A stretch of 64,000 nt of DNA from Tubulanus polymorphus (taxonomy: Eukaryota; Nemertea; Palaeonemertea; Tubulaniformes; Tubulanidae), in assembly GCF_964204645.1 (NCBI RefSeq), contig NC_134034.1:14141962-14205961 (forward strand), read 5' to 3'. The position numbers and the translations under genes are program-made. The number at the start of each line of letters is the position of its first letter. The first letter of the stretch is position 1. This document shows positions 1-63,006 of this stretch, piece after piece. The notes beneath the pieces were generated by a model, which was not told the DNA's origin, did not search any database, and was given only the letters and a program-made list of their open reading frames with translations.

Positions 1-60
1 AGCCATATGAAAAAATGTAAAGCGAATGCGTGAATAAAATAAAACAGCATGAAATGCTGA

Positions 61-345
61 TATAAAGAGTGGGGTCCGAGAGCAATTCGAAGGTTTAGTG
101 TCCTGCACGCTTAGCGAGCGGGCAGGGGTCTATTCCTACCTCGACTCAAAAAAGATGAAATATAAAGAGAAGGGTCGAGAGCAATTCGAAGGTTTAGTGT
201 CCTGCACGCTTAGAGGGCGGGCAGGGGTCTATTCCTACCTCGACTCAAAAAAGATGAAATATAAATAGAAGGGTCGAGAGCAATTCGAAGGTTAAGTGTC
301 CTGCACGCTTAGCGAGCTCGCAGGGGTCTATTCCTACCTCAACTC
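61..345. repeat. ~100-bp tandem repeat (3 copies)
   Basis: Three consecutive copies of a unit of about 100 bp contain 'gtcctgcacgcttag' and 'ctattcctacctcgactca'. Units 2 and 3 of the big duplication carry only two copies each (22700-22880 and 34870-35050), so the array varies in copy number between paralogous units. No coding role is seen. Confidence 0.85.
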
Positions 346-1200
346 ATGCGCTAAAAATCAGAGAAAAGAGTAAAAACGAAAAATGGCAAATGAAGGAAAA
401 ATGGCTGGAGTTTGATTTGTTCCACTGGGTTCAAGTGTTAACTTGAAAAGACAATCAAACAGATTATTTATGACGTATATATTTTGCATCAAAACATTGA
501 TTAATAACTTTTATGAATAGGATTCCATAAACTACTTGCTTATATGAAACCTCTAGTAGAGAGTATTGAAATAGTCCACAATGGTTTCATTTAGTGACGT
601 CATGTTGAATTGGTGAAGCAACATCAATAGCATTAATTGTTTTGATCTCAGCCATCATTCTTGTCCTTGGTTTGTGTTTGCCTTTCTCACAATATTTTGT
701 GAGTGTGGAGGTTTGGTTCGGGCTTATTTCCTCGGTTCGCGTGAACCCTCCGTATACCTCCCCCTCCCTTACAACATTAAGTTCCTCGGGTTTGGTTTGA
801 TGTTTTGTAGATGAAACCTCTACAACTCAAACTCGCATCATTTGATGAAATGAAATCTGTTTACAGACGACTGCTGCAACTTGTCGTGAAACTGAGATAT
901 ATTGTGAATACTTATTAGAGGGAGTAGAAATAATAGGAATAATGTGATGAAATTGATAAAGAAATCATCTGTAAAAATGAAGCCATGTGATTTTCAAGAC
1001 CAACCCAGGCATATGATCATTTGAGGTCATCTGAATGCCTCCAAAATGTGTAGAGAAAGTATCTGTGAGTCCCATCAATGATGCAATTGATTAAGGATTT
1101 TGATTTATAAATGAAATTGATATGATCGTGAAAAATGGCAAATCGTTTTGTAGTTATTGTACAGATGAGTGGTGTGTGAAGAGGAGACAAGAGAGTTAAG
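346..1200. other. Unit head, non-coding stretch
   Basis: No convincing gene. The stretch is AT-rich and is shared with 22890-23740 and 35060-35880. It includes a GGTTCGGG-containing segment at 710-790 with imperfect self-complementarity. The only ORF here, 67 codons on the minus strand at 1017-1220, has no recognisable features. Confidence 0.6.
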
Positions 1201-1208
1201 GAGGCATG

Positions 1209-1310
1209 ATGGGAGGGCATTGAGGGAGGGCTAGGTGGGAGGGCTTTGAGGGTGGGCCAGGTGGGAGGGCGGGAGGGAAGGGGTCTGGGAGGGGAGGGTC
1301 GGGTCGGGAG
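1209..1310 (+). repeat. G-rich array (GGGAGGG/GGGCGGGAGGG)
   Basis: Degenerate tandem runs of gggagggc and gggaagggg lie on the plus strand. Matching arrays occur at 23745-23885 and 35880-36120 in units 2 and 3 with different lengths. The runs of three or more G at short spacing fit G-quadruplex motifs. Only the sequence pattern is shown; no structure was tested. Confidence 0.8.
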
Positions 1311-1508
1311 GTTAGATGAGTTAAAATGTTCTGATGTTTTAGTTAGATGGATGGGAATCTAATGAAGATGAGAGAACATTAAATCACTGTTCAATCACAG
1401 GATGAAGTAATGCAGTGATCTGTACTCTGTATCTGTACACAATGTTACATGTATCTGTAACTGTACAATCAGTATGAAATAAGTACAGCAGTTTAATCTA
1501 CAGAAATC
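1310..1508 (+). repeat. Arm of ~200-bp inverted repeat (right-type)
   Basis: This segment (ggttagatgagttaaaatg to ctacagaaat) is the reverse complement, with mismatches, of 20053-20250. The same arm occurs at 23885-24078 and 36119-36312. Between a beta arm and the next unit's head arm lie about 3.6 kb, so each such stretch is flanked by inverted arms (20053 with 24078; 32393 with 36312). Confidence 0.8.
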
Positions 1509-1594
1509 CTGTACTGTTTCTGTCTGATTGATTGATAATTTGAGATGTTACATTCTGCTCTATTGTCACTGATTATTGTTTCTTTTTCTTTTCA

Positions 1595-1642
1595 GAATGA
1601 AATGAATGCAATAGAATTTACTATTTAAACAGGCTCATTTAA
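1595..1642 (+). other. Splice-bounded small exon upstream of the VNTR exon
   Basis: The sequence tttcttttcag|aatgaaatg... ends in ttaag|gtaagta. Both consensus splice signals are preserved in unit 2 (acceptor ~24168, donor ~24215) and unit 3 (~36406, ~36455). The short insert contains in-frame stops in the ATG frame, so if it is used it is probably 5' UTR. Confidence 0.35.
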
Positions 1643-1742
1643 GGTAAGTATAAAACTGGTAATGAATTTCTCCACAGAATTCTTCACAGTCTCTGTTGAT
1701 ATTTTGAATTATTTTTGAACTAAAAATTACTGTTTTACTCTC

Positions 1743-2248
1743 AGTTACAGGATGAGATACACACCGCAGCAGCAGCAGCAACAGCAGCACTGGCAGTACC
1801 CGCAGTACCAGCACCATGCAGCAACAGCGCCACCACCAGCTGCAACAGCAGCACTGGCAGTACCTGCAGTACCAGCACCATGCAGCAACAGCGCCACCAC
1901 CAGCTGCAACAGCAGCACTGGCAGTACCCGCAGTACCAGCACCATGCAGCAACAGCGCCACCAGCAGCTGCAACAGCAGCACTGGCAGTACCCGCAGTAC
2001 CAGCACCATGCAGCAACAGCGCCACCACCAGCTGCAACAGCAGCACTGGCAGTACCTGCAGTACCAGCACCATGCAGCTACGTACAGAGCCACCACCAGC
2101 TGCAACAGCAGCACTGGCAGTACTCGCAGTACCAGCACCATGCAGCAACAGCGCCACCACCAGCTGCAACAGCAGCACTGGCAGTACCCGCAGTAACAGC
2201 ACCATGCAGCAACAGCGCCACCAGCAGCTGCAACAGCATCAGTAGCAG
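1743..2248 (+). CDS. VNTR exon, Gln/His-rich, frame-rotating 64-bp repeat (hypothetical)
   Basis: An acceptor-like tttactctcag precedes an ATG at 1752 and a donor-like AG|GTAAAA ends the exon near 2248. The body is about 7 copies of a 64-bp unit (agctgcaacagcagcactgg...). Because 64 is not a multiple of 3, the frame changes with each copy. The product cycles through a QQQ-HWQYPQYQ phase, an Ala/Pro phase and a Ser/Thr phase, giving a 64-residue super-period, and all plus-strand frames stay largely open. Unit 2 has the same exon with about 4 copies and a retained ATG. Unit 3 has a shortened exon whose ATG is ATA. Coding status is inferred from splice sites and openness only; it could equally be a non-coding VNTR. 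Confidence 0.4.
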
Positions 2249-2319
2249 GTAAAACCTGTTTGGAAATTCATTATTTTTAGAGAACTGTTCTATATAAATT
2301 ATTCTATCTGTTTATGTTT

Positions 2320-3800
2320 CCAGCATTCAATCACTCAAAGATCACGGCTTAGTTTGATTTTGGTGTGAAACTGCTCTTATTTCATAACAACTTAACTGAC
2401 AATTCTAAAATTTGTATTTAGGAGCTGAAATAACTGGAACCCTTGATAGAATCTGTGAACAGTAAACATTGGGAATTCACTTCACATTTGTTTAAGATGG
2501 ACATCGCTTTAGATCCTCAAAACCAATACGGTACCGGTAAATATCTTTACAGATTCTAGTCTCTGTTTGACTGTACATTTATAAACTCATTTCCTGATTA
2601 GAAGCTACATTAATCAGTGAAGGCGAATTTTCAATCACTTCTATTCTGGTCAAAGTTCGAATCATCAAAATTATACAACTGTTGTATTCTGGGGTCTAAA
2701 ATAAAGCTGAACTTGCAGTAAACATTGCGCTCTACAAATCAAACAAGTCAGAAGCGGTGAGTTTTATATCGATTTATTGCAGTAATTTGTGGTGATCTTC
2801 AAATCAAGTCCAGAAAATGATGTTTTGATCGGTCAATGTTGGCAGGTATCAACGTTTTACTTGAGGACGCAGTCTAAAGCTACCATCAAACCTCTCAGAA
2901 ATCTGCATATACTCGACACATTGTGATAAACTACTCATTAACCTGGTAGGTTTTCTGTCAATCGAACAGTTGCAGTTTCTATCTATTTCATTAACCATTT
3001 TCTGGCATAATTTTCTCTTTCCAGAATGCAATACGCCCAACACTTATTGGAACTGGAGAAATTAAAAATATTCACCTTCAAAGAGTAAAGAAGCTCTAGT
3101 TGCTGAAGCTGCTGCTATCGTTTTAAGAATTTATTTTCTCAGAAAATCATCAGTTCTCTTAACTTCATGACATTACCGTATTACTGTTGGAAGTGAAATC
3201 CTGCTAGATGGCACTGAACTTATCTGATATGAGTTTAGAAATGGTGAGTCTTTCATCACTCCACTGTGCTCTAATTTCATTATATTCTAACATTTAATTA
3301 TTCTGTACAGGATTTTTATGCGTGATTCTCCGGGAAGCAGTGTGGCTGATGCTGCTGCAGCTGATGCTGCTTAATTCTGCTCAACACAAGTTTGAAAATG
3401 ATTGATTTTCTAATAGAATTTAGCCCCAATTTCAGACTGCTATAAATACGTTACTTTTTCATAGTATGATGATTTTTTGCAGCATGAAATTTGTCCAATC
3501 GAACAGTTTGAAAATTGACCAAAGATTGAATAATGTTGTTGAATTATCTAGAATTATAAGGTAATGATAAATTCTAGTTTCCGAAATATTTCATGAAAAC
3601 AATAATTCCCACTTGACTGTTAATTCAATCGAACATTTTCAATGTAATATTTGCTGACACAGGTTTTCTCTATTCTAGGACGAAGTAGGGATCGGGACCA
3701 ATTTGCCATTTGACAGGGACAGGAACCAGCCATCTACCTGGAGATTGATATGCTGCCACTTATTTCAGATCTGCAATTTTTAAGTTTAAAGCCAAATGAA
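2320..3800 (+). other. Splice-rich stretch with short exon candidates (unit head)
   Basis: Several short islands sit between consensus splice signals and are conserved across units. At 2497 an ATG starts MDIALDPQNQYGTG and runs to a donor gtaccg|gtaaat. At ~3209 an ATG starts MALNLSDMSLEM and runs to a donor |gtgagt. At ~3679 a ...tctag|gacgaag exon reads DEVGIGTNLPFDRDRNQPS. The matching positions in unit 2 and unit 3 keep these reading frames. No family is recognised. It may be a small spliced gene repeated with the unit, or chance ORFs. Confidence 0.3.
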
Positions 3801-5330
3801 TATTGTTTATCTGTGCCGACCGGCACGGGCAGCCTACTGTTTGTGATGGTTTGATAGACTGTGTATCACGTATACATAAAAACAATAGAGTCATCCCCTG
3901 ATTCGTCTCTCAAAGCTGTGGTGTCATTTTTGCTAATAGAATAATAGCCTGACTCGGGCATAGAATATATAATTTAAACCCTGCTATATGCAAATTTAAG
4001 GCAAAATTCATTTATCAAGAATCAAAGTAATAAAAGTATAATGAAGAAATAACTAGAACAACCTATACGAACAAAATAACAAAACCTCTCGACCTTAGCA
4101 CTGAACACTCGCTTTACTTTCCTAATTAACTTGTTTTTCCCTGTTTTAGTTATTCTTCAGACTTGATAATGGTCTCTACAGAGACTCCAAAATGTTGTGT
4201 CTTTTACTTCTATTAAGTTTCTATATAGTGGGTTTTAAAGTTTTAGTGAAAATTGAAATTGAAGATTAAATGTAGCTGTAAAGCAGCGATAACTGGTTGC
4301 ATTAGTTTGTAATTGTTTGTACCCCACGACCCAGTTTTATTGGTCTGGTTTTGTAAAAAAAATTGTATGATACACATATTGTATAATGATGTAATATGGA
4401 CATGTTTTAAGTAACTCAATCAATGAAACCATAAAGTTGAAATATCGACAGGTTTTCTTTATTATGGGACTATAATATTTCGTGTGAACTGTTGTTCTGT
4501 TTTATTTGAAATAAAGATGAATTTTCTGTGTTGTTTTAGTTGTGATAACAGACGCCAGCAGTTTCACACACACTCAGTGCGTCACACGTAAATCCCACGG
4601 GTTCAGTTTCATAGAAATAATTAACTCAAAAAACTTTACTCAATTCGACTTTACCGTCTCAATAAATGAATATTTTTGAAGAAACTGAGCCTAGGGTACA
4701 GTTTCACGAACCAATTGCGTTCAAACATTTTATTTTGAAGAAAAAATTAAATCCAAGTTGAAATTGATTCATCCTTTCTCTGTGAAACTGGACTCGACGG
4801 GATTAAATACTCGCTATTCAGTGTGCGAAACTGCAGCATCTAAATCTGATTGAAACCCGCATCATAAACCAAATCCTACCGACGGATTAATTATCATCAA
4901 AGATTTGTGAGATTTGATCAATTTCTTCGCAAATTCATTTAAAAAATGGATCGTTTTTTGTGAAACTGCGACCCCTGGTGTCCACTCGAGGGATTCATTT
5001 ATTCTTTTTCACCCTGGTATGCGAGGGTTTCAATTCGATGGTCCAACTACTATTCTTAAAAAGGCAGGTGCATTACATGACAATGAGGAATAAATGTAGA
5101 TAAATTTTGCTGTAAGTCGTGTGTGCGTTATTTTATCATTTTTCGAGAAACTGGGTCATTCATTTATTACGTACGCATTAGGGGAGGGCGAGGGGGTCAG
5201 TGCAATTGCGTACGTAATCCTTAATGTATATGAGAAAATGGCCGATTTTGCGTACAGAGGGGGGGGGGGGTTGAAAATTTCAAATTTTATGCGTACGTAA
5301 TAAATGAATGATCCCAACAACCTAGAATAA
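3800..5330. other. Unit head, 3'-UTR-like and non-coding sequence
   Basis: No ORF of note. It contains several AATAAA motifs (for example in 'gaaataaagatgaa' near 4508). Recurrent 'gtgaaactg' motifs lie between 4560 and 5150, as often seen in decayed interspersed repeats. Shared with 26100-27760 and 38150-39560. A 160-bp insertion at about 27450-27665 is present only in unit 2 and carries GGGCCCAGTTTCAC-type inverted motifs. Confidence 0.5.
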
Positions 5331-5960
5331 TGCTGGGTTCGAACCCGGGTCACCCCTGTACATCATCTAATCAGCATCAGGACCTCTCTGAACCAGTATC
5401 AGTAATTACTGAGTTCGAACCCGGGATACCCCTGTACATCCTCCATTCAGCATCAGGACCAATCAGAATCAGTACCAATAGACCGGATTTGAACCCGGGA
5501 TGCCCCTCTACATCCTCTATTCAGCATCAGGACCACTCTGAATCAGTTATCAGTAATTACTTTTGTTAAGATATCAACATTTTACCGTACGGTGCTGCCT
5601 CTATGCTTATCGGTAGCGGGATTTTCATACACTAACGTTAGTCAACTCTGGCAAGCAAGGGTTACGGAGTATAACTGGACAGCACGACGATTGCCAGAGT
5701 TGACTTCAGTTAGTGTACGGAAATCCCGCTAACGATGAGCATAGCGGCAGCACCGTACGGTCGGGACACCCCTGTACATCCTCTATCCAGCATCAGGACA
5801 ACTTGGACCACTACTGAGTTCGAACCCGGGACACCCCTGTACATCATCTGATCAGCATCGGGACCTCTCTGAATCAGTATCAGTAATTACTGGGTTCGAA
5901 CTGGGGTCACCCCTGTACATCCTCTTCTCAGTATCAAGACCACTCTGAACCAGTATCAGT
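5330..5960 (+). repeat. ~75-bp minisatellite carrying pol III B-box-like motifs
   Basis: Copies begin with GGTTCGAACCCGGGA and continue with 'acccctgtacatcctctattcagcatcaggacc' and 'cagtatcagtaattact', with a period of about 74-76 bp. The array is interrupted by the 176-bp palindromic MITE. Related arrays are at 27750-28230, 39580-40110 and 52755-53235. Each unit carries a near-perfect B box (GGTTCGAACCC), but no paired A box at tRNA spacing is seen, so these are not tRNA genes. Confidence 0.8.
5585..5760. mobile_element. 176-bp palindromic MITE, copy in unit 1
   Basis: The left arm starts CCGTACGGTGCTGCC and the right arm ends GGCAGCACCGTACGG. Each arm is about 70 nt with roughly 90% complementarity, and about 35 nt of loop lies between them. 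The whole element would fold into one long hairpin. No ORF is present. No clear target-site duplication can be seen, partly because the flanks are tandem repeats. Confidence 0.85.
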
Positions 5961-6055
5961 AATTACTTGGTTCGAACGCGGGACACCCCGTACCCATTAT
6001 GATGCGATTAGACACGTGATCGATGGTCGTCCTCATTTAGAAGAAGAATTTAATT

Positions 6056-6367
6056 GTGAAACATGGTCATATCCAGGAATGTTTAAACCCGGCGATCAAT
6101 GTCTCGACTAAAACCGTGTCTATATCGATATTTGTACTGTTAATCGTCGTATTCATCTTCTTTACGATAACCTACAACGATACGATTTCAAACTGTGTTC
6201 TACCCGTACTCGTAGTAGGCCTAACTACCAATTTCACGTTGTTTGGAGCCAATTTAGGACAGTTTAACTTCAACCTAGAGCGATTTCACCCACCCCGAGT
6301 GCTACTTGATAAAAGTTCCTGTGTATCAAGTTTAATCGTAATCGGTCCATTGGGTCAAGAGATATAG
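6056..6367 (+). pseudogene. Two-TM membrane protein terminal-exon fragment (unit 1)
   Basis: The frame from 6056 gives about 103 residues with a hydrophobic stretch (SISIFVLLIVVFIFFTITYN), an Asn-rich loop, and a second hydrophobic stretch (VLPVLVVGLTTNFTLFGA). A good-looking acidic, Cys-containing segment (DGRPHLEEEFNCETWSYPGM) lies just upstream in a different frame (about 6020-6110). The joint is therefore frameshifted in every copy. A poly(A) signal follows about 120 bp after the stop. I read this as the end of a captured gene, broken before it was amplified. Family not recognised; this copy lacks 15 bp present in the fourth unit. Confidence 0.45.
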
Positions 6368-15916: not shown

Positions 15917-16348
15917 AGGCGTCCCCTGCTCAAACCACGAAAATCAGTGTCAAATAATTCGCGAAAATGAACTAAGTTGAGACCTGAAAAGCGACCTTTT
16001 TCTAACTTCCTGCACGACCCTAATAGTGGCCTAGGGCTCTGAAACTTCTCGGGTATTTAGAAGGGGTCATATAGTTGATATAGAACCATTAAAATCCTGG
16101 TCGCGGGGCTCCGTTGAGCCTAGGCGTCCCCTGCTCAAACCGCGAAAATCAGTGTCAAATAATTCGCGAAAATGCATTAAGTTAAGACCTGAAAAACGAC
16201 CTTTTTCTAACTTCCGGCACGACCTTGATAGTGGCCCTAGGGCTCCGAAACTTCTCGGGTATTAAGAAGGGGTCATGAAGTTGATATAGAACCATTAAAA
16301 ATCCTGGACGCGGGGCTCCGTTGAGCCTAGGCGTCCCCTGCTCAAACC
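15917..16348 (+). repeat. ~206-bp tandem duplication leading into the 18-bp array
   Basis: Two full copies (15917-16121, 16122-16328) start 'aggcgtcccctgctcaaacc'. A third copy begins at 16329 but after 20 bp gives way to the 18-bp minisatellite at 16349. Copies differ by a few substitutions and small indels. Confidence 0.85.
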
Positions 16349-16949
16349 AGTACTCTGTCGGTGCACAGTACTCCGTCGGTACACAGTACTCTATCGGTAC
16401 ACAGTACTCTGTCGGTACACAGTACTCTGTCGGGAAACAGTACTCCGTCGGTACACAGTACTCCGTCGGGACACAGTACTCCGTCGGTACACAGTACTCT
16501 GTCGGTACACAGTACTCCGTCGGGACACAGTACTCCGTCGGGACACAGTACTCCGTCGGTACACAGTACTCAGTCGGTACACAGTACTCCGTCGATACAC
16601 AGTACTCCGTCGGGACACAGTACTCCGTCGGGACAAAGTACTCTGTCGGTACACAGTACTCCGCCGATACACAGTACTCCGTCGGGACACAGTACTCCGT
16701 CGGGACACAGTACTCCGTCGGTACACAGTACTCCGTCGGGACACAGTACTCTGTCGGTACACAGTACTCCGTCTGTACACAGTACTCCGTCGGGACACAG
16801 TACTCCGTCGGGACACAGTACTCTGTCGGTACACAGTACTCCGTCTGTACACAGTACTCCGTCGGTACACAGTACTCTGTCGGGACACAGTACTCCGTCG
16901 ATACACAGTACTCTGTCGGTACACAGTACTCTGTCGGTACACAGTACTC
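16349..16949. repeat. 18-bp minisatellite array A (AGTACTCCGTCGGTACAC)
   Basis: About 33 copies of an 18-bp unit with a few variable positions (ctccgtcgg / ctctgtcgg / gggac / ggtac). The period is a multiple of 3, so several frames on both strands stay open across the array (YCVPTE, YSVGTQ, HSTPSV repeats). These are artefacts of the period, not evidence of a protein. Confidence 0.95.
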
Positions 16950-17344: not shown

Positions 17345-17692
17345 TGGGTACTATGTCGGGTCACGGTACTCTGTCGGTACACAGTACTCCGTCGGGACAC
17401 AGTACTCCGTCGTCGGTACACAGTACTCCGTCGGGACACAATACTCGTCGGGACACAGTACTCCGTCGGGACACAGAACTCCGTCGGTACACAGTACTCC
17501 GTCGGGACACAGTACTCGTCGGGACACAGTACTCCGTCCGGTACACAGTACTCCGTCGGGACACAGAACTCCGTCGGGACACAGTACTCCGTCGGGACAC
17601 AGTACTCCGTCGGTACACAGTACTCTGTCGGTACACAGTACTCTGTCGGTACACAGTACTCTGTCGGTACACAGTACTCTGTCGGGACACTA
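17345..17692. repeat. 18-bp minisatellite array B
   Basis: Same unit as array A but less regular, with units of 15-21 bp (cgtcgtcgg, ctcgtcggg, gtccgg variants), about 19 copies. The indels break the long frames that stay open in array A. It ends abruptly where module tail sequence resumes at about 17697. Confidence 0.93.
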
Positions 17693-22548: not shown

Positions 22549-22889
22549 ACCTTTTGCTGTTTGTCTCTAAAAGATTAAACTTGATCCCAGTCGGAACGGA
22601 TGAGAATTTTAGTGAGACGACAAATAAGGAAAAGCCATATGAAAAAATGTAAAGCGAATGCGTGAATAAAATAAAACAGCATGAAATGCTGATATAAAGA
22701 GTGGGGTCCGAGAGCAATTCGAAGGTTTAGTGTCCTGCACGCTTAGCGAGCGGGCAGGGGTCTATTCCTACCTCGACTCAAAAAAGATGAAATATAAAGA
22801 GAAGGGTCCGAGAGCAATTCGAAGGTTTAGTGTCCTGCACGCTTAGCGAGCGCGCAGGGGTCTATTCCTACCTCGACTCATGTGCTAAA

Positions 22890-24160
22890 AGTCAGAGAAA
22901 AGAGTAAAAACGAAAAATGGCAAATGAAGGAAAAATGGCTGGAGTTTGATTTGTTCCACTGGGTTTAAGTGTTAACTTGAAAAGACAATCAAACAGATTA
23001 TTTAATGACGTATATATTTTGCATCAGCAGTTTAAAAACATTGATTAATAACTTTTATGAATAGGATTCCATAAACTACTTGCTTATATGAAACCTCTAG
23101 TAGAGAGTATTGAAATAGTCCACAATGGTTTCATTTAGTGACGTCATGTTGAATTGGTGAAGCAACATAAATAGCATTAATTGTTTTGATCTCAGCCATC
23201 ATTCTTGTCCTTGGTTTGTGTTTGCCTTTCTCACGACATTTTGTGAGTGTGGAGGTTTGGTTCGGGTTTATTTCCTTGGTTCGGGTGAACCCTCGGTATA
23301 CCTCCCCCTCCCTTACAACATTAGGTTCCTCAGGTTTGGTTTGATGTTTTGTAGATGAAACCTCTACAACTCAAACTCGCATCATTTGATGAAATGAAAT
23401 CTGTTTACAGACGACTGCTGCAACTTGTCGTGAAACTGAGATATATTGTGAATACTTATTAGAGGGAGTAGAAATAATAGGAATAATTTGATGAAATTGA
23501 TAAAGAAATCATCTGTAAAAATGAAGCCATGTGATTTTCAAGACCAACCCAGGCATATGATCATTTGAAGTCATCTGAATGCCTCCAAAATGTGTAGAGA
23601 AAGTATCTGTGAGTCCCATCAATGATGCAATTGATTAAGGATTTTGATTTATAAATGAAATTGATATGATCGTGAAAAATGGCAAATCGTTTTGTAGTTA
23701 TTGTACAGATGAGTGGTGTGTGAAGAGGAGACAACAGAGTTGAGGAGGCATTGAGGTAGGGCTAGGTGGGAGGGCATTGAGGGAGGGGTCCAGGAGGGCG
23801 GGAGGGAAGGGGTCAGGGAGGGCGGGAGGGAAGGGGTTTGGGAGGGCGGGAGGGAAGGGGTCTGGGAGGGGAGGGTCGGGAGGTTAGATGAGTTAAAATG
23901 TTCTGATGTTTTAGTTAGACGGATGAGAATCTAATGAAGATGAAAGAACATTAAATCACTGTTCAATCACAGGATGAAGTAATGCAGTGATCTGTACTCT
24001 GTATCTGTACACAATGTTACATGTATCTGTAACTGTACAATCAGTATGAAATAAGTACAGCTGTTTAATCTACAGAAATCCTGTACTGTTTCTGTCTGAT
24101 TGATTGATAATTTGAGATGTTACATTCTGCGCTATTGTCACTGATTATTGTTTCTTTTTC
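22890..24160. other. Unit 2 head, non-coding part
   Basis: Colinear with 346-1590. It contains the G-rich array 23745-23885 and the inverted-repeat arm 23885-24078. No additional feature is seen relative to unit 1. Confidence 0.6.
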
Positions 24161-24313
24161 TTTTCAGAATGAAATGAATGCAATAGAATTTACTATTTAA
24201 ACAGGCTCATTTAAGGTAAGTACAAAACTGGTAATGAATTTCTCCACAGAATTCTTCACAGTCTCTGTTGATATTTTGAATTATTTTTGAACTAAAAATT
24301 ACTGTTTTACTCT

Positions 24314-24653
24314 CAGTTACAGGATGAGATACACACCGCAGCAGCAGCAACAGCAGCACTGGCAGTACCTGCAGTACCAGCACCATGCAGCAACAGCGCC
24401 ACCAGCAACAGCAGCAGCACTGGCAGTACCAGCACCATGCAGCAACAGCAGCACCAGCAGCACTGGCAGTACCTGCAGTACCAGCACCATGCAGCAACAG
24501 CGCCACCAGCAGCTGCAACAGCAGCACTGGCAGTACCCGCAGTACCAGCACCATGCAGCCACAGCGCCACCAGCAGCTGCAGCAGCAGCACTGGCAGTAC
24601 CTGCAGTACTAGCACCATGCAGCAACAGCGCTACCAGCAGCGGCAGCAGCAGG
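24314..24653 (+). CDS. VNTR exon, unit 2 copy (hypothetical)
   Basis: Same acceptor (tttactctcag) and ATG as unit 1. The array is about 4 irregular copies of the 64-bp unit, some shortened. The frame from the ATG at 24324 stays open to SSGSSR and the donor-like CAG|GTAAAA. Length difference from unit 1 is due to repeat number. Coding status is unproven for the same reasons as in unit 1. Confidence 0.4.
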
Positions 24654-24659
24654 TAAAAT

Positions 24660-27600
24660 CTGTTTGGAAATTCATTATTTTTAGAGAACTGTTCTATATA
24701 AATTATTCTATCTGTTTATGTTTCCAGCATTCAATCACTCAAAGATCATGGCTTAGTTTGATTTGGTGTGAAACTGCTCTTATTTCATAACAACTTAACT
24801 GACAATTTCTAAAATTTGTATTTAGGAGCTGAAATAACTGGAACCCTTGATAGAATCTGTGAACAGTAATCATTGGGAATTCACTTCACATTTGTTTAAG
24901 ATGGACATCGCTTTAGATCCTCAAAACCGATACGGTACCGGTAAATATCTCTACAGATTCTAGTCTCTGTTTGACTGAATATTTATAAACTCATTTTCTG
25001 ATTAGAAGCTACATTAATCAGTGAAGGCGAATTTTCAATCACTTCTATTCTGGTCAAAGTTCGAATCATCAAAATTATGCAACTGTTGTATTCTAGGGTC
25101 TAAAATAAAGCTGAACTTGCAGTAAACATTGCGCTCCACAAATCAATCAAGTCAGAAGCGGTGAGTTTTATATCGATTTATTGCAGTAATTTGTGGTGAT
25201 CTTCAAATCAAGTCCAGAAAATGATGTTTTGATCGGTCAATGTTGGCAGGTATCAACGTTTTACTTGAGGACGCAGTCTAAAGCTACCATCAAACCTCTC
25301 AGAAATCTGCATATACTCGACACATTGTGATAAACTACTCATTAACCTGGTAGGTTTTCTGTCAATCGAACAGTTGCAGTTTCTATCTATTTCATTAACC
25401 ATTTTCTGGCATAATTTTCTCTTTCCAGAATGCAATACGCCCAACACAAATTGGAACTGGAGAAATTAAAAATATTCACCTTCAAAGAGTAAAGAAGCTC
25501 TAGTTGCTGAAGCTGCTGCTATCGTTTTAAGAATTTATTTTCTCAGAAAATCATCAGTTCTCTTAACTTCATGACATTATGACTGTTGGAAGTGAAATCC
25601 TGCTAGATGGCACTGAACTTATCTGATATGAGTTTAGAAATGGTGAGTATTTCATCACTCCACTGTGCTCTAATTTCATAATATTCTAACATTTAATTAT
25701 TCTGTACAGGATTTTTATGTGTGATTCTTAATTCTGCTAAACACAAGTTTGAAAATGATTGATTTTCTAATAGAATTTAGCCCCAATTTCAGACTGCTAT
25801 AAATACATTACTTGGTATTTTCATAGTATAATGATTTTTTGCAGCATGAAATTTGTCCAATAGAACAGTTTGAAAAGTGATCAAAGATTGAATAATGGTG
25901 TTGAATTATCTAGAATTATAAGGTAATTATAAATTCTAGTTACCGAATTATGTCATGAAAACAATTCCCATTTGACTGTTAATTCAATCGAACATTTTCT
26001 ATGTAATATTTGCTGATGCAAGTTTTCTCTATTCTAGGACGAAGTGGGGATCGGGACCAATTTGCCATTTGACAGGGATAGTGACCAACCATCTACCTGG
26101 AGCCAAATGAATATTGTTTATCTGTGCCGACCGGCACGGGCAGCCTACTGTTGTTCTGTTTGTGATGGTTTGATGATAGACTGTGTATCACATATCCATA
26201 AAAACAATAGAGTCATCCCCTGATTCGTCTCTCAAAGCTATGGTGTCATTTTTGCTAATAGAAAAATAGCCTGACTCGGGCATAGAATATATAATTTAAA
26301 CCCTGCTATATGCAAATTTAAAAGGCAAAATTCATTTATCAAGAATCAGAATCAAAATAATAAAAGTATAATGAAGAAATAACTAGAACAACCTATACGC
26401 ACAAAATAACAAAACCTCTCAACCTTAGCACTGAACACTCGCTTTACTTTCCTAATTAACTTGTTTTTCCCTGTTTTAGTTTTTCTTCAGACTTGATAAT
26501 GGTCTCTACAGAGACTCCAAAATGTTGTGTCTTTTACTTCTATTAAGTTTCTATATAGTGGGTTTTAAAGTTTTAATGAAAATTGAAATTGAAGATTAAA
26601 TGTAGCTGTAAAGCAGCGATAACTGGTTGCAATAGTTTGTAATTGTTTGTACCCCACGACCCAGTTTTATTGGTCTGGTTTTGTAAAAAATTGTATGATA
26701 CACATATTGTATAATGATGTAATATGGACATGTTTTAAGTAACTCAATCAATGAAACCATAAAGTTGAAATATCGACAGGTTTTCTTTATTATGGGACTA
26801 TAATATTTCGTGTGAACTGTTGTTCTGTTTTATTTGAAATAAAGATGAATTTTCTGTGTTGTTTTAGTTGTGATTACAGACGCCAGCAGTTTCACACACA
26901 CTCAGTGCGTCACACGTAAATCCCACGGGTTCAGTTTCATAGAAATAATTTACTCATAAAACTTTACTCAATTCGACTTCACCGCCTCAATGAATGAATA
27001 TTTTTGAAGAAACTGAGCCTAGGGTATAGAGTTTCACAAACCAATTGCGTTCAAACATTTTATTTTGAAGAAAAAAGTAAATCCCTAGTTGAAATTGATT
27101 CATACTTTCTCTGTGAAACTGGACTCGACGGGATTAAATACTCGCTATTCAGTGTGCGAAACTGCAGCATCTAAATCTGATTGAAACTCCGCATCATAAA
27201 CCAAATCCTACCGATTGTACGGTTTCACATATACGGATTAGTTATCAAAGATCAACAAAAAAGAAAAACTGAGTTCATGAAGTTCATCTGTTTTTGTGAG
27301 ATGTGATCCAGATAAAATTTCTTCACAAATTCAGTTAATGCATCCTTTTTTGTGAAACTGCGACCCCTGGTGTCTACTCGAGGGATTCATTTTTTCTTTC
27401 TTACCCTGGTATGCGAGGGATTCAATTCGATGGTCCAACTACTATTCTTAAAAGGGCAGGGTCCAGTTCCACAGTTGTTGAGTTAAGATTTAACCCTGGG
27501 CCCAGTTTCACAAAAAGGATTAAGGCCTAAATCGATTTAAGATAAACTGAATTAATGAAGAAATTAAATCGATTTAAGAGTTAAACCATTTTGTGAAACT

Positions 27601-34575: not shown

Positions 34576-36556
34576 GATCTAACGTTTTTTAAAGTTATTT
34601 CTGTTGCCTTCATGACTCAATATTTGAGAATGGAACAAATGACGTAGTTAATGAAAGATTCATCTGTATCAGTGTTGCTGCTGGTGCTGCTGCAGCTGCT
34701 GCTGCTGGTGCAACTAACACAACCTTTTGCTGTTTGTCTCTAAAAGATTAAACTTGATCCCAGTCGGAACGGATGAGAATTTTAGTGAGACGACAAATAA
34801 GGAAAAGCCATATGAAAAAATGTAAAGCGAATGCGTGAATAAAATAAAACAGCATGAAATGCTGATATAAAGAGTGGGGTCCGAGAGCAATTCGAAGGTT
34901 TAGTGTCCTGCACGCTGAGCGAGTGGGCAGGGGTCTATTCCTACCTCGACTCAAAAAAGATAAAATATAAAGAGAAGGGTCGAGAGCAATTCGAAGGTTT
35001 AGTGTCCTGCACGCTTAGCGAGCGGGCAGGGGTCTATTCCTACCTCGACTCATGTGCTAAAAGTCAGAGAAAAGAGTAAAAACGAAAAATGGCAAATGAA
35101 GGAAAAATGGCTGGAGTTTGATTTGTTCCACTGGGTTTAAGTGTTAACTTGAAAAGACAATCAAACAGATTATTTAATGACGTATATATTTTGCATCAGC
35201 AGTTTAAAAACATTGATTAATAACTTTTATGAATAGGATTCCATAAACTACTTGCTTATATGAAACCTCTAGTAGAGAGTATTGAAATAGTCCACAATGG
35301 TTTCATTTAGTGACGTCATGTTGAATTGGTGAAGCAACATAAATAGCATTAATTGTTTTGATCTCAGCCATCATTCTTGTCCTTGGTTTGTGTTTGCCTT
35401 TCTCACAATATTTTGTGAGTGTGGAGGTTTGGTTCGGGTTTATTTCCTCGGTTCGGGTGAACCCTCCGTATACCTCCCCCTACCTTACAACATTAGGTTC
35501 CTCAGGTTTGGTTTGATGTTTTGTAGATGAAACCTCTACAACTCAAACTCGCATCATTTGATGAAATGAAATCTGTTTACAGACGACTGCTGCAACTTGT
35601 CGTGAAACTGAGATGTATTGTGAATACTTATTAGAGGGAGTAGAAATAATAGGAATAATTTGAATAATTCAATGAAATTGATGTGATTTTCAAGACTGCA
35701 CTAGGCAAATGATCATTTGAATGCCTACGAAATTGTAGAAAAGTATCTGTGAGTTCCATCAATGATGCAATTGATTAAGGATTTCAATTTATATATGAAA
35801 TTGATATGATCATGAAAAATGGCAAATCGTTTTGTAGTTATTGTACAGATGTGTGGTGTGTGAAGAGGAGACAAGAGTGTTGAGGAGGCATTGAGGGAGG
35901 GCATTGAGGGAGGGCTATGATGGGAGGGCATTGAGGGAGGGCTATGATGGGAGGGCATTGAGGGAGGGAATTGGGGTGGGAATGGGGTGTGGGAGGGAAG
36001 GGGTAAGGGAGGGCAGGAGGGAAGGGGCGATGGAGGGCGGGAGGGAAGGGGTCGGGGAGGGTGGGATGGTAGGGGTCTGGGAGGGCGGGAGGGAAGGGGT
36101 CCGGGAGGGTCGGGTCGGGAGGTTAGATGAGTTAAAATGTTCTGATGTTTTAGTTAGACGGATGGGAATCTAATGAAGATGAGAGAACATTAAATCACTG
36201 TTCAATCACAGGATGAAGTAATGCAGTGATCTGTACTCTGTATCTGTACACAATGTTACATGTATCTGTAACTGTACAATCAGTATGAAATAAGTACAGC
36301 AGTTTAATCTACAGAAATCATGTACTGTTTCTGTCTGATTGATTGATAATTTGAGATGTTACATTCTGCTCTATTGTCACTGATTATTGTTTCTTTTTCT
36401 TTTCAGAATGAAATGAATGCAATAGAATTTACTATTTAAACAGGCTCATTTAAAGGTAAGTACAAAACTGTTAATGAATTTCTCCACAGAATTCTTCACA
36501 GTCTCTGTTGATATTTTGAATTATTTTTGAACTAACAATTACTGTTTTACTCTCAG

Positions 36557-36668
36557 TTACAGGATAAGATACACACCGCAGCAGCAGCAGCAACAGCAGC
36601 ACTGGCAGTACCTGCAGTACCAGCACCATGCAGCAACAGCGCCACCAGCTGCAACAGCAGCTGTAGCA
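36557..36668 (+). pseudogene. VNTR exon, unit 3 copy, contracted, start lost
   Basis: The counterpart of the VNTR exon has only about one and a half 64-bp units, and the ATG is changed to ATA (caggataagatacac). The splice-like sites remain. If the unit 1 exon codes for a protein, this copy no longer starts at the same place. Confidence 0.45.
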
Positions 36669-37664
36669 GGTAAAACCTGTTTGGAAATTCATTATTTTTA
36701 GAGAACTGTTCTATATAAATTATTCGTTTCCAGCATTCAATCACTCAAAGATCACGGCTTAGTTTGATTTGGTGTGAAACTGCTCTTATTTCATAACAGC
36801 TTCACTGACAATTTCTAAAAATTTTAAACATTGGGAATTCACTTCACATTTGTTTAAGATGGACATCGCTTTAGATCCTAAAAACCAATACGGTACCGGT
36901 AAATATCTCTACAGATTCTAGTCTCTGTTTGACTGTACATTTATAAACTCATTTCCTGATTAGAAGCTACATTAATCAGTGAAGGCGAATTTTCAATCAC
37001 TTCTATTCTGGTCAAAGTTCGAATCATCAAAATTATACAACTGTTGTATTCTAGGGTCTAAAATAAAGCTGAACTTGCAGTAAACATTGCGCTCCACAAA
37101 TCAAACAAGTCAGAAGCGGTGAGTTTTATATCGATTTATTGCAGTAATTTGTGGTGATCTTCAAATCAAGTCCAGAAAATGATGTTTTGATCGGTCAATG
37201 TTGGCAGGTATCAACGTTTTACTAGAGGACGCAGTCTAAAGCTACCATCAAACCTCTCAGAAATCTGCATATACTCGACACATTGTGATAAACTACTCAT
37301 TAACCTGGTAGGTTTTCTGTCAATCGAACACAAACAAGTTGCAGTTTCTATCTATTTCATTAACCATTTTCTGGCATAATTTTCTCTTTCCAGAATGCAA
37401 TACGCCCAACACTTATTGGAACTGGAGAAATTAAAAATATTCACCAAGCTCTAGTTGCTGAAGCTGCTGCTATCGTTTTAAGAATTCATTTTCTCAGAAA
37501 ATCATCAGTTCTCTTAACTTCATGACATTATGACTGTTGGAAGTGAAATCCTGCTAGATGGCACTGAACTAATCTGATATGAGTTTAGATATGGTGAGTA
37601 TTTCATCACTCCACTGTGCTCTAATATTCTGTACAGAATTTTTATGTGTTATTCTCAGGAAAGC

Positions 37665-37730
37665 AGCTGCTGCCGCCGCTGCTGCCGCCGCCGCTGCTGC
37701 CGCCGCCGCCGCAGCCCCCGCCGCCGCTTA
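37665..37730. repeat. (GCTGCCGCC)n tract in unit 3
   Basis: It replaces the 'gctgatgctgctgcagctgat' of unit 1 (3341-3371) with about 65 bp of GCT/GCC triplets. Unit 2 has lost the tract altogether. A fast-changing trinucleotide site inside a splice-bounded candidate exon. Confidence 0.8.
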
Positions 37731-39665
37731 ATTCTGCTCAACACAAGTTTGAAAATGATTGATTTTCTAATAGAATTTAGCCCCAATTTCAGACTGCTAT
37801 GAATACATTACTTAGTATTTTCATAGTATAATGATTTTTTGCAGCATGAAATTTGTCCAATAGAACAGTTTGAAAAGTGATCTAAGATTGAATAATGGTG
37901 TTGAATTATCTAGAATTATAAGGTAATTATAAATTCTAGTTACCGAATTATGTCATGAAAACAATTCCCATTTGACTGTTAATTCAATCAAACATTTTCA
38001 ATGTAATATTTGCTGACGCAAGTTTTCTCTATTCTAGGACGAAGTGGGGATCGGGACCAATTTGCCATTTGACAGGGACAGGAACCAGCCATCTACCTGG
38101 AGATTGATATGCTGCCACTTGTTTCAGATCTGCAATTTTTAAGTTTAAAGCCAAATAGATATTGTTCATATGTGCCGACCGGCATGGGCAGCCTACTGTT
38201 GTTCTGTTTGTGATGGTTCACATATACATAAAAACAATAGAGTCATCCCCTGATCCCCTGATCTCTCAAAGCTGTGGTGTCATTTTTGCTAATAGAATAA
38301 TAGCCTGACTCAGGCATAGAATATATAATTTAAACCCTGCTATATGCAAATTTAAAAGGCATAATTCAATTATCAAGAATCAGAATTAAAATAATAAAAG
38401 TATAATGAAGAAATAACTAGAACAACCTATACGAACAAAATAACAAAACCTCTCGACCTTAGCACTGAACACTCGCTTTACTTTCCTAATTAACTTGTTT
38501 TTCCCTGTTTTAGTTATTCTTCAGACTTGATGATGGTCTCTACAGAGACTCCAAAATGTTGTGTCTTTTACTTCTATTAAGTTTCTATATAGTAGGTTTT
38601 AAAGTTTTAGTGAAAATTGAAATTGAAGATTAAATGTAGCTGTAAAGCAGCGATAACTGGTTGCAATAGTTTGTAATTGTTTGTACCCCACGACCCAGTT
38701 TTATTGGTTTGGTTTTGTAAAAAATTGTATGATACACATATTGTATAATGATGTAATATGGACATGTTTTAAGTAACTCAATCAATGAAACCATAAAGTT
38801 GAAATATCGACAGGTTTTCTTTATTATGGGACTATAATATTTCGTGTGAACTGTTGTTCGGTTTTATTTGAAATAAAGATGAATTTTCTGTGTTGTTTTA
38901 GTTGTGATTACAGACGTCAGCAGTTTCACACACACTCAGTGCGTCACACGTAAATCCCACGGGTTCAGTTTCATAGAAATACGTAATTTACTCAAAAACT
39001 TTACTCAATTCGACTTTACCGTCTCAATGAATGAATATTTTTGAAGAAATTGGACCTAGGATACAGTTTCACGAACCAATTGCGTTCAAACATTTTATTT
39101 TGAAGAAAAAATTAAATCCAAGTTGAAATTGATTCATCCTTTTTTTGTGAAACTGGACTCGACGGTATTAAATACTCGCTATTCAGTGTGCGAAACTGCA
39201 GCATCTAAATCTGATTGAAACCCTTGAATCATAAACCAAATCCTACCGAGGGTACGGTTTCACATATACGGATTAATTATCATCAAAGATTAACAAAAAA
39301 GAAGAGTTCATCTGTTTTGTCATTTCGTGAGATTTGATCCAGATTAAATTTCTTCACAAATTCGGTTAAAAATGCATCGTAACTGCGACCCCTGGTGTCC
39401 ACTCGAGGGATTCATTTATTCTTTTTTACCCTGGTATGCGAGGGTTTCAATTCGATGGACCAACTACTATTCTTAAAAAGGCAGGTGCGTTACATGACAA
39501 TGAGGAATAAATATAGATAAATGTTGCTGTAAGTCGTGTGTGCGTTATTTAATCATTTTTTGAGAAACAACCTAGAATAGACACCCCTGTACATCCTCTA
39601 TTCAGCATCAGGACCTCTCTGAATCAGTTATCAGTAATTACTTTTGTTAAGATATCAACATTTTA

Positions 39666-39841: not shown

Positions 39842-40168
39842 TCGGGACATCCTCTATCCAGCATCAGGACAACTTGGACCACTACTGGGTTCGAACCCGG
39901 GACACCCTTGTACATCATGATCACTCTGAATCAGTATCAGTAATTACTAGGTTCGAACCCGGGACACCTCTGTACATCCTCTATTCAGCATCAGGACAAC
40001 TTGGACCACTACTGGGTTCGAAACCGGGACACCCCTGTACATCCTCTATTCAGTATCAAGACCACTCTGAACCAGTATCAGTAATTACTGGGTTAATACC
40101 CGGGACACCCCGTACCCATTATGATGCGATTTATAGACACATGATCGATGGTCGTCCTCATTTAGAAG

Positions 40169-40492
40169 ATGAATTTAATTGTGAAACATGGTCATATCCA
40201 GGAATGTTTAAACCCAGCGATCAATGTGTCGACTAAAACCGTGTCTATATCGATATTTGTACTGTTAATCGTCGTATTCATCTTCTTTACGATAACCTAC
40301 AACGATACGATTTCAAACTGTGTTCTACCCGTACTCGTAGTAGGCCTAACTACCAATTTCACGTTGTTTGGAGCCATTTTAGGACAGTGTAACTTCAACC
40401 TAGAGCGATTTCACCCACCCCGAGTGCTACTTGATAAAAGTTCCTGTGTATCAGGTTTAATCGTAATCGGTCCATTGGGCCAAGAGATATAG
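40169..40492 (+). pseudogene. Two-TM membrane protein fragment, unit 3
   Basis: Same arrangement as unit 1: the DGRPHLEDEFNCETW segment in one frame ending at a stop after DQCVD, and the two-hydrophobic-stretch frame overlapping it. The 15-bp deletion relative to the fourth copy is shared with units 1 and 2. Confidence 0.45.
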
Positions 40493-51717: not shown

Positions 51718-52290
51718 GTAAGTCAGCTGGCTGGTCGACTGGTCAGTGCGTACCGGTCCTACTGGTATAAGTCAGCTGGCTGGTCGACCGGTCAGTGCGT
51801 ACCGGTCCTACTGGTATAAGTCAGCTGGCTGGTCGACCGGTCAGTGCGTACCGGTCCTACTGGTATAAGTCAGCTGACTGGTCGACTGGTCAGTGCGTAC
51901 CGGTCCTACTGGTACAAGTCAGCTGACTGGTCGACCGGTCAGTGCGTACCGGTCCTACTGGTATAAGTCAGCTGACTGGTCGACTGGTCAGTGCGTACCG
52001 GTCCTACTGGTATAAGTCAGCTGGCTGGTCGACCGGTCAGTGCGTACCGGTCCTACTGGTATAAGTCAGCTGACTGGTCGACTGGTCAGTGCGTACCGGT
52101 CCTACTGGTATAAGTCAGCTGACTGGTCGACTGGTCAGTGCGTACCGGTCCTACTGGTATAAGTCAGCTGGCTGGTCGACCGGTCAGTGCGTACCGGTCC
52201 TACTGGTATAAGTCAGCTGACTGGTCGACTGGTCAGTGCGTACCGGTCCTACTGGTACAAGTCAGCTGACTGGTCGACTGGTCTGTGCTA
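51718..52290 (+). repeat. 49-bp minisatellite starting at the MRH exon 3 donor
   Basis: About 11.7 copies of a 49-bp unit (taagtcagctggctggtcga / ccggtcagtgcgtaccggtc / ctactggta). The first copy includes the splice donor itself (AAG|GTAAGTCAG). Later copies carry GGTATAAGTCAG or GGTACAAGTCAG in its place, so the donor sequence has been amplified in altered form. Confidence 0.93.
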
Positions 52291-53235: not shown

Positions 53236-54297
53236 GTACCCATTATGATGCGATTAGACACGTGATCGATGGTCGTCCTCATTTAGAAGATGAATTTAAT
53301 TGTGAAACATGGTCATATCCAGGAATGTTTAAACCCGGCGATCAATGTCTCGACTAAAACCGTGTCTATATTGGTACTGTTAATAGTCGTATTAGGTGCC
53401 TACGGATTCATCTTCTTTACGATAACCTACAACGATACGATTTCAAACTGTGTTCTACCCGTACTCGTAGTAGGCCTAACTACCAATTTCACGTTGTTTG
53501 GAGCCATTTTAGGACAGTGTAACTTCAACCTAGAGCGATTTCACCCACCCCGAGTGCTACTTGATAAAAGTTCCTGTGTATCAAGTTTAATCGTAATCAG
53601 TCCATTGGGTCAAAAGATATAGACATTTATCCAAAGCGACACCTATATGGAAAAGAGTGGAAATTGTTGCATACCAACCTTAAAATAGATATTGTGGTTT
53701 TTATATAAATTGAATGATGTCACCAACTCTTTCATTCATTCAGAAATAAACTACTGTATTGAGCGAAGTATCTTTTAAATAAAGTGGCCTCCACTAGATA
53801 AAGCAAATATATGTGTTCAAAATATGTAAGTTAGTATAGAATCTATTGACCAAAAAATAACCCGAGTCAAACAGATGATCATCGTACTACAAATTCCTCG
53901 CTGGGCCAAAAATTAGCCCCAACCTGAGGCACTAACCCTAACCCTAGTTTGACCGTAACCCTAACCCTAGCAGAACTCGAACCTGCGACCTCCAGCTCGC
54001 CAGCCGAGCACGCTAACCACTAGACCGCTGAGTTCTGGTGGCTGAACCAGTTTGCGAATACGACTGGTCAGTGTGGTACGAGGCCAACACTAGGGTTACT
54101 GCGTTTATCAAACAGGCCAACACTCGTCAATGTTTGTTTCTTGGTAATTGCCTTTTTAGTGCCCTGGGGCCAGTTCCATGGGTGATGGCTTAGGAGGTGA
54201 ATCTAAGCTTTTCTCATATCGGTATTTGTACATAACTCAATCGTGAACGTCTTTCTGTATTCCAAGACTGATTCTATTGGCTAATACAGTCAAACTA
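53236..54297. repeat. Module copy, fourth unit first
   Basis: Best-preserved version of the membrane ORF region. It retains 15 bp (aggtgcctacggatt) missing from units 1-3, giving the hydrophobic run SILVLLIVVLGAYGFIFFTI. The 5' segment DGRPHLEDEFNCETWSYPGM still ends at a stop after GDQCLD. SINE head at ~53968-54025. Confidence 0.8.
53290..53622 (+). pseudogene. Two-TM membrane protein fragment, fourth unit first copy
   Basis: 110 codons with two predicted TM segments (LVLLIVVLGAYGFIFFTI; VLPVLVVGLTTNFTLFGAIL) and a C-terminal ISPLGQKI. It overlaps, in another frame, the NCETWSYPGMFKPGDQC segment. Without a joint in one frame it cannot be an intact gene. Its residues TYND-IS-NC... are only faintly like SLC6 TM7-TM8, which I do not rely on. 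Confidence 0.45.
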
Positions 54298-55540
54298 ATA
54301 TTTGTACTGATGTTGATAGTCGTATTAGGTGCCTACGGATTCATCTTCTTTACGATAACCTACAACGATACGATTTCAAACTGTGTTCTACCCGTACTCG
54401 TAGTAGGCCTAACTACCAATTTCACGTTGTTTGGAGCCATTTTAGGACAGTGTAACTTCAACCTAGAGCGATTTCACCCACTCCGAGTGCTACTTGATAA
54501 AAGTTCCTGTGTATCAAGTTTAATCGTAATCAGTCCATTGGGTCAAGAGATATAGACATTTATCCAAAGCGAAACCTTTGGAAAAGAGTGGAAATTGTTG
54601 CATACCAACCGTAAAGTAGATATTGTGGTTTTTATATATATTGAATAATGTAACCAACTCTTTTATTCATTCAGAAATAAACTACTGTATTGAGCGAAGT
54701 ATCTTTTAAATAAAGTGGCCTCTAAGGATAAAGCAAATATATGTGTTCAAAATATATCAGTTAGTATAGAATCTATTGACCAAAAAATAACCCGAGTCAA
54801 ACAGATGATCATCGTACTACAAATACCTCGCTGGGCCAAAAATTAGCCCCAACCTGAGGCACTAACCCTAACCCTAGATCGACCGTAACCCTAACCCTAG
54901 CAGAACTCGAACCTGCGACCTCCAGCTCGCCAGCCGAGCACGCTAACCACTAGACCGCTGAGTTCTGGTGGCTGAACCAGTTTGCGAATACGACTGGTCA
55001 GTGTGGTACGAGGCCAACACTAGGGTTTCTGCGTTTATTAAACAGGCCAACACTAGGGTTACTGCGTTTATCAAACAGGCCAACACTCGTCAATGTTTGT
55101 TTCTTGGTAATTGCCTTTTAAGTGCCCTGGGGCCAGTTCCTTGGGTGATGGTTTAGGACGTGAATCTAAGCTTTTCTCATATCGGTATTTGTACATAACT
55201 CAATCGTGAACGTCTTTCTGTATTCCAAGACTGATTCTATTGGCTAATACAGTCAAACTAAATCGTTTAATCCGCATCGGCTTAATCCGAATTTTGGCTT
55301 AATCCGGATAATATTTACAGTCAATTTAATCAACAATATACACGAAAATGACTTTAATCCGGATTTGCCGTAAAACGGATGAATTTTGTTGGTCCCAATG
55401 ATCGGAATTAGGGAAATTTCATCATACCATTTACTCTCCTTATATAAAGCTCTAATGTTGGTACAGTTATTAATTTCTAACAAACTAGTGTTGAGTGATG
55501 AATGAAATTTGACTTAAGAAAAATCTGTATTCCTCACATG
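54298..55540. repeat. Module copy, fourth unit second (5'-truncated)
   Basis: It starts within the membrane ORF (aatatttgtactgatgttgatagtc) after the tail of the preceding module. It includes the ORF at 54277-54555, poly(A) signals, telomere-like motifs, SINE head (~54900-54960) and tail. It resembles the arrangement in unit 2 (29366), but the break point is different. Confidence 0.8.
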
Positions 55541-61704: not shown

Positions 61705-62309
61705 ATTCATGAAGATACCAAACACCCAGTGGATTAATATAGGTACTGGTTATTAAACTAGTTATTGGGCAACGAATGTATCAGAATGCTTCAATGACTG
61801 GAGTAAAAAACTATTGTTTTCCTATAATTGAATGGCACTTACCTCGCTACTAATGAGTTGCATATGTCCATCTTTGATAGTATTTGTCTATACCGGTACT
61901 TACCACAGCAGTCTCAATAACAATGTCGTATAACTATATCATTCACTATATATACATCGGTACAACCAGATAATATAGCTTTTATATGTATCTACCTTTA
62001 AATAGATTTGAATGTTGTGAATTTGGTACGTCTGATATATGGAAATTAAATTCCTTCCATTTTTGTCGTAATTCTTATGTGAATTGAGGCCGAGCTACTC
62101 GAAGCTTCATTTAAACGAAGGTTTTCACATATTGTAAATAGTAACTTTCGTTAGTTTAAAATGTCATTTCAAACTAGATATTATGTAACCTTTACAAATG
62201 AATCGAAATACATCGAGAATGGTTTGCAAGAAAACGTTTTTGATTTTTTTTCTTCTTTATGACGGGACTCAGTTCGACATTTCTGACGAAACTGGCTCCA
62301 AATTCTTAC
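61705..62309. other. Gap between two convergent genes
   Basis: Contains an ATTAAA at 61752, a possible poly(A) signal for the ependymin-related gene. No ORF is supported. A further 3' exon of the minus-strand kringle gene might lie here but I could not place one. Confidence 0.4.
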
Positions 62310-63006
62310 CGTAACACAGCGAGATATCACAGTATTCTTTGACGACTGATCCGTTTAAATCGACCAGGCAGTATAAACCTCTGACGTCACGAGTAGGATT
62401 TCTACAATAGTTAGCCGCGTCATATTCGGTCGGGTCTGGGAAATCTGAGGCGTTAAAATTAGTTGCGGATTGCCAGTTTAAACACTCTTTACCGCTGATA
62501 GATTTCCAAGTTCTACCCGTGTAATTACTACCGAGTTCATTCATTCTACACTCAATAGCCGGCTCTGAAATATTCAAATAATTCTAAATCAAAATCTAAA
62601 CAGTGCCCTGAAAATTAAATTCTTTAACAACGAAGTCAATTCTAAGAAGGAAGAGGTCCGTTTGCTTTTGATCCTTTTACTAAGGATCAACTGATCAGTA
62701 TTCAGACCTATTCGGATTTAGAGAAGTGAAGGATTGAGAATTGAGATGATTTACCGCAGAATGGTATATTACAAGTCTCCCAGTCACGTTCTCCGAGCCC
62801 GTAAGCACACCACGGTCCTGTAGAATCTAGATCTGGATTTCTGCAATAACTTGTATTCATCGTTTTATCAGAGAACTGATCGGCTTTATAATGTTCTTCG
62901 TGTGTTACCCACAATAGACACGTTAAACCGGACATAGTCTTGTTCTGATGACCGATATAATTAAACCCTGTTGCAGTTTGACGACAATCCATCGTCACAT
63001 CGACAT
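62310..63006 (-). CDS. Kringle-domain protein, two exons (partial gene)
   Basis: Minus strand. Exon 62755-63006 (252 bp) follows a ttttag acceptor and encodes a kringle with six Cys: DCRQ, TCLLW, YCRNPD, PWCAYG, ETCNIPFC. Exon 62310-62564 (255 bp) follows atttcag and encodes a second: ECRM, ECLNW, YCRNPTRD, LYCLV, EYCDISLC. Each kringle is one exon with donors CG|GTAA, as is usual for this domain. In the second, the usual PWC Trp is Tyr. If the last donor is not used, the frame ends in KNLEPVSSEMSN at 62269. Kringles are disulphide-stabilised extracellular modules for protein or ligand binding; the full architecture lies outside the window or is unplaced. Confidence 0.85.

Follow-up and report, generated by a model that had tools for sequence, protein, structure and literature searches.

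The window, that is the whole stretch of 64,000 nucleotides analysed here, lies at 14.14-14.21 Mb of contig C10 (14.30 Mb long) in a eukaryotic assembly of 268 Mb and 77 contigs. Comparison of the window with itself using BLAST revealed three copies of a large duplicated unit holding a VNTR, at 160-5151 (plus strand), 22692-27460 and 34865-39568. In copy 1, the program TRF detected a 64-bp minisatellite of 7.2 units at 1773-2238 on the plus strand, with a match of 94%. Copy 2 gave two periods, one of 64 bp at 24446-24652 (3.2 copies) and one of 52 bp at 24362-24605 (4.4 copies), and the array of copy 3 comprises about 1.5 units at 36580-36669, as read from the sequence. The tandem repeat of about 7, 4 and 1.5 units described in the initial annotation is thus present. 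The same duplicated unit carries a G-rich tandem repeat at 1210-1270 and a second variable triplet tract (GCT/GCC/GCG) at 3321-3370 on the plus strand, which corresponds in copy 3 to a GCC-rich tract of 81 nt at 37648-37728 (plus strand, locus L014).

The minisatellite is framed by splice-like signals. A short exon A was predicted at 1596-1643 on the plus strand, with TTTTCTTTTCAG before it, GGTAAGT after it and stops in all three frames. The VNTR exon (exon B) was predicted at 1745-2248 on the plus strand, with a length of 504 nt and consensus-like borders, namely TTTACTCTCAG ahead of 1745 and GTAAAA at 2249. A second AG stands six bases further on (TTACAG), from which the exon would start at 1751 and measure 498 nt; it is the one kept, without the first AG, in 7 of 11 aligned members of a dispersed family of relatives described below. 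The exon had initially been taken to begin at 1743, bounded by consensus splice sites; the consensus character of the borders stands, and the predicted start becomes 1745 or 1751. From an ATG at 1752, a frame of 165 codons runs open to the donor, and the equivalent frame of copy 2 is open for 109 codons (predicted exon at 24317-24652, plus strand, 336 nt, locus L013), as had been claimed for these two units. In copy 3 (predicted exon at 36557-36669, plus strand, 113 nt), the start ATG is an ATA and the frame is not open. Downstream sequence was predicted at 2324-2440 on the plus strand.

Elsewhere in the window, two frames on the minus strand, at 62272-62583 and 62711-63052, encode kringle domains (Pfam PF00051, E-values of 3.9e-13 and 5.3e-15) and lie outside the compared repeat units. 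A frame at 52343-52534 matches a portion of Pfam PF00209 (sodium:neurotransmitter symporter family, E-value of 4.4e-18) and follows closely on an array of 49-bp tandem repeats (51719-52288). Four nearly unchanged occurrences of one open frame, about 100-110 codons long and hydrophobic on visual inspection, lie at 6041-6364, 40166-40489, 53287-53619 and 54247-54552; the two occurrences scanned against Pfam (6041-6364 and 53287-53619) gave no match. Finally, 18-bp tandem repeats at 16348-16949 (33 units) and 17355-17690 (19 units) leave several frames open on both strands.

Allowing up to 2 mismatches, the sequence at the start of the VNTR was detected at no fewer than 52 places of the genome, most of which belong to large tandem arrays close to the ends of contigs. 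Counts from these genome searches are lower bounds, scoring having been limited to the best candidates. At 3 mismatches, at least 7 more places were recovered, all of them dispersed relatives without the 64-bp repeat. Among the 52 places, 49 are on chromosome-size contigs and the other 3 on contigs of 68-69 kb. Of these 49, 45 are no more than 0.52 Mb from a contig end, the concentration near chromosome ends that characterizes a subtelomeric segmental repeat, contig ends being assumed to be chromosome ends. The remaining four comprise three copies at 9.5 Mb of C6 and one at 20.18 Mb of C7. Forty of the 45 near-end copies face inward, away from the nearest contig end, and the five facing outward form the right-hand cluster of C10, which includes this window. 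On C10 the direction of the array flips between 13.94 and 14.18 Mb, with six minus-strand copies at 13.94-14.01 Mb and five plus-strand copies at 14.09-14.18 Mb. Neighbouring copies are 10-14 kb apart in 27 cases out of 40, within a range of 6.8-24.6 kb.

The mean identity between copies is 97.98% within arrays and 97.58% between arrays, loci L025 and L026 being left out for too small an overlap. For 22 of 38 copies the closest relative sits in a different array, and in 5 of these 22 the two arrays are the two ends of C4. This pattern fits exchange between chromosome ends, and a recent spread could give the same one. Diversity among copies was calculated in 25-base bins of three non-repeat segments, s1-s3 (350-1195, 1315-1775 and 2239-3300), from the 36-40 rows per segment that passed a coverage filter. 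It ranges there from 0.000 to 0.077, and reaches 0.12 in 3300-4500 (26 rows). A low-diversity 33-mer at 2776-2808 (plus strand) served as a genome marker; with at most 3 mismatches, it was found at 74 places or more, some of them in relatives that lack the 64-bp repeat.

These more diverged relatives occur elsewhere on C1, C2, C3, C4, C5, C7 and C8. In the seven that were compared (L065-L071), the segments of at least 200 bases are about 78-94% identical to the window. At the site of the VNTR, plain triplet tracts of 34, 70 and 22 nt were found in L065, L066 and L072, respectively, and long CAG or GCA runs in L071 and L070, which suggests that a plain triplet tract may be the older state. Two 74% matches, C3:12176204 and C2:31727282, were considered as diverged paralogues and rejected as plain CTG/CAG arrays; among the matches listed, their similarity to the window is limited to the repeat and the second triplet tract. 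A parent protein gene of the dispersed family was also sought and discarded as a candidate: three peptides of one relative returned no Pfam family, and one relative-derived peptide gave no convincing solved structure (best E-value of 0.44). One of the peptides has at least 105 matches in the genome, and the four of these places examined were further copies of the dispersed family. The best exon-like block of the family bears no coding signature, its variants being distributed 8/9/8 over the three codon positions (10 ungapped of 12 matches).

The composition of the repeat accounts for its three phases. The 64-mer consists of 21 CAG-like triplets and one base. It matches a CAG register at 46 of 63 positions, or 47 at the best skip position, when 300 shuffles averaged 26 and never exceeded 32. 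The single base added to 21 triplets rotates the frame from unit to unit (64 mod 3 = 1) and yields the Gln, Ala and Ser phases, which are three readings of CAG. The rotation and the three phases observed in the translated frames (Gln/His/Trp/Tyr, Ala/Pro and Ser/Thr) agree with what had been described from the window. We fetched 56 loci, and in 51 of them the predicted exon could be measured between fixed anchors; of the other five, three show altered borders (L021, L022 and L026) and two are plain triplet arrays (L049 and L050). The 51 paralogous copies contain from 1 to 13 unit anchors, a variation in unit number among copies such as is expected of a VNTR, and 115 of the 147 distances between anchors are exactly 64, a head-to-tail arrangement within the range of roughly 10-100 bp expected of such units.

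The predicted exon varies in length from 89 to 899 nt. Its length modulo 3 is spread evenly, with 17, 13 and 21 copies in classes 0, 1 and 2, and 16, 13 and 19 when only the 48 distinct sequences are counted (p = 0.57). Inside the array, 31 of the 32 distances other than 64 differ from it by a multiple of three. Among the distinct gap runs of the flanking segments s1-s3, 9 of 56 are multiples of three (9 of 32 without the one-base gaps), and 21 of 57 in segment s4, which contains the second triplet tract. The latter measures 8-119 nt between fixed anchors, both found in 35 of 40 copies, and its length falls into a single class modulo 3 in 30 of these 35. Selection on the reading frame could likewise give internal changes in multiples of three; we prefer triplet slippage, because gains and losses of whole units, each shifting the frame, occur freely, the total length modulo 3 is flat and the second tract keeps one class in 30 of 35 copies.

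The near absence of stops in all three frames had been pointed out, with a depletion beyond composition proposed as a check. The openness itself is seen in the array. Shuffling the 64-mer 20,000 times by each method left all three frames stop-free in 20.9% (dinucleotide) and 26.8% (mononucleotide) of cases, so that the openness does not exceed chance for this composition (P of about 0.21 and 0.27, respectively). Within the 115 exact 64-base units, 7 of 37 distinct substitutions create a stop on the plus strand, for 5.75 expected, and 6 do so on the minus strand, for 4.97 expected; stops are thus not depleted. The lack of stops is accordingly explained by composition, an outcome named beforehand as one that would refute the proposal. 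It had further been suggested that an open frame is preserved through changes in copy number. Besides the flat distribution of lengths, among the 48 copies that keep the ATG, 22 have its frame open as far as the donor, 21 are interrupted within the first 15 codons and 5 later. Summed over the 51 copies, 32 stops fall in the frame of the ATG position and 16 in each of the other two, these counts being drawn from related copies and hence from events that are not independent. They point away from selection for the ATG frame, the most interrupted of the three.

The gain or loss of one copy had also been said to swap the downstream frame; such a swap has no open frame to lead into. The analysis covered the three copies of the window. 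From the predicted acceptor at 2324, the first stops occur at codon indices 14, 10 and 8 in copy 1 and 20, 10 and 8 in the other two copies, every frame being closed by codon 21. An alternative downstream start at 2422 meets stops at indices 3, 1 and 13, and unspliced read-through past the donor meets them at 39, 0 and 9 in copy 1 and at 45, 0 and 9 in copy 2. With the predicted downstream exon closed in every frame, changes in copy number cannot switch between long C-termini. A frame preserved through and beyond the exon, as in a protein-coding VNTR, was consequently not found in these copies. Selection against amino-acid change, examined outside the repeat only, was not detected either: 25 flanking open frames gave omega-like values of 0.47-3.77, of which 7 were at or below 0.65, and these low values, based on small counts and with no significance computed, are taken as scatter. 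None of the tests indicated selection for a protein, whichever frame was considered.

Taken together, the 64-bp repeat is very probably a non-coding subtelomeric minisatellite, an ordinary fast-changing derivative of a CAG repeat. Its history would have started from a CAG/GCA triplet tract lying between splice-like signals in a dispersed repeat family. This tract may have gained a one-base shift, a route suggested by the 21 triplets and one base of the present unit, and the resulting 64-base block would then have been duplicated head to tail. The host sequence was presumably amplified as tandem arrays near contig ends, with a spacing of 10-14 kb in most cases. Gene conversion and unequal exchange, acting between chromosomes as well, could explain how the flanks remain about 98% alike when the units number from 1 to 13, and triplet slippage within the unit would produce the internal length changes in multiples of three.

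The alternative that survives best supposes that the region gives a spliced non-coding transcript in which the VNTR is one exon, so that copy number alters the length of the RNA and no protein is made. It is compatible with the minisatellite reading, and we consider it possible, with the odds somewhat against it. Among 40 long copies, the exact acceptors of exon A and exon B are kept in 39 and 38, respectively. The exon-A donor CATTTAAGGTAAGT is exact in 12 and found in 37 when extra A's are allowed (CATTTAA+GGTAAG), and the VNTR-exon donor CAGGTAAAA is exact in 31 and found in 37 when only GTAAAA and the downstream context are required. The measured set shows the acceptor TCTCAG in 51 of 51 copies and the donor GTAAAA in 50. 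Such near-intact borders could be held against the minisatellite reading, but are weak evidence, since the loci were picked by those borders and diverge by about 2%. The aligned dispersed relatives also keep an acceptor AG and, in 6 cases out of 11, the GTAAA donor after the tract; however, this donor is missing in the other 5, and exon A is missing in 4 of the 11 and truncated in a fifth. The predicted exons show no clear dip in diversity, with 0.016-0.023 in the bins of exon A, 0.020-0.043 in the following intron and values from 0.002 elsewhere. Searching the genome for a retrocopy of the spliced A-B junction, with either acceptor and up to 3 mismatches, returned none. No Rfam family reached its gathering score in the window, and the copy 1 RNA showed no folding advantage over shuffled sequences (z = 0.24). 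Within 1-6000, four weak matches to RNA families (E-values of 0.25-2.6) were regarded as fortuitous; two of these cover the CTG-rich array on the minus strand. No tRNA was found in the window using bacterial settings.

Maintenance of the repeat for a role as DNA, such as that of a recombination hot spot or a subtelomere spacer, is improbable. The position near contig ends, the variable unit number and the G-rich tandem repeat of the same unit would all suit such a role; against it, the host sequence persists in dispersed relatives devoid of the 64-mer and in the shortest copies of the arrays, which have a single unit, and nothing tested showed a benefit. Weaker still is a coding exon that deliberately gives varied Gln/Ala/Ser-rich peptides by frame rotation, which the open ATG frames of copies 1 and 2 and the 31 of 32 spacing changes in multiples of three would favour, and which we judge very unlikely given the early stops in 21 of 48 copies, the interruptions concentrated in the ATG frame, the undepleted stops and the frames closed upstream and downstream in the window copies.

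The minisatellite interpretation makes the locus a clear example of how a conspicuous repeat, open in three frames, can arise without coding, from a degenerate CAG tract that has an added base in each unit and is multiplied in subtelomeric arrays. The many paralogous copies provide a natural experiment beyond what a single window offers. In annotation, such three-frame open repeats should not be called genes. We see scarcely any chance that some of the 50-odd copies are transcribed and that the arrays yield mosaic Gln/Ala/Ser-rich peptides, the unit number setting the order of the phases; were it true, each chromosome end would supply different versions of these peptides.

A literature search of titles and abstract openings found no published description of this 64-bp repeat. 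One published account describes the minisatellite arrays that it terms subtelomeric as GC-rich. The present arrays resemble them as minisatellite arrays termed subtelomeric, and differ from them in that a degenerate CAG tract here forms part of a large tandemly repeated unit, and the VNTR start of this unit occurs at 52 or more places. CAG trinucleotide tracts read in three frames give poly-Gln, poly-Ser and poly-Ala. The likeness to these tracts is that three low-complexity phases follow from the triplet itself, whereas in the 64-mer the phase rotates within a single reading, through one base added to every 21 triplets. For CGG repeats and frameshifts, see PMC9410890. Finally, coding VNTRs like MUC1 (PMC5843638, PMC9379575) have a similar unit length and an exon-like place; the MUC1 unit of 60 bp is a multiple of three, in contrast with the 64 bp of the present repeat, for which no coding constraint was found.
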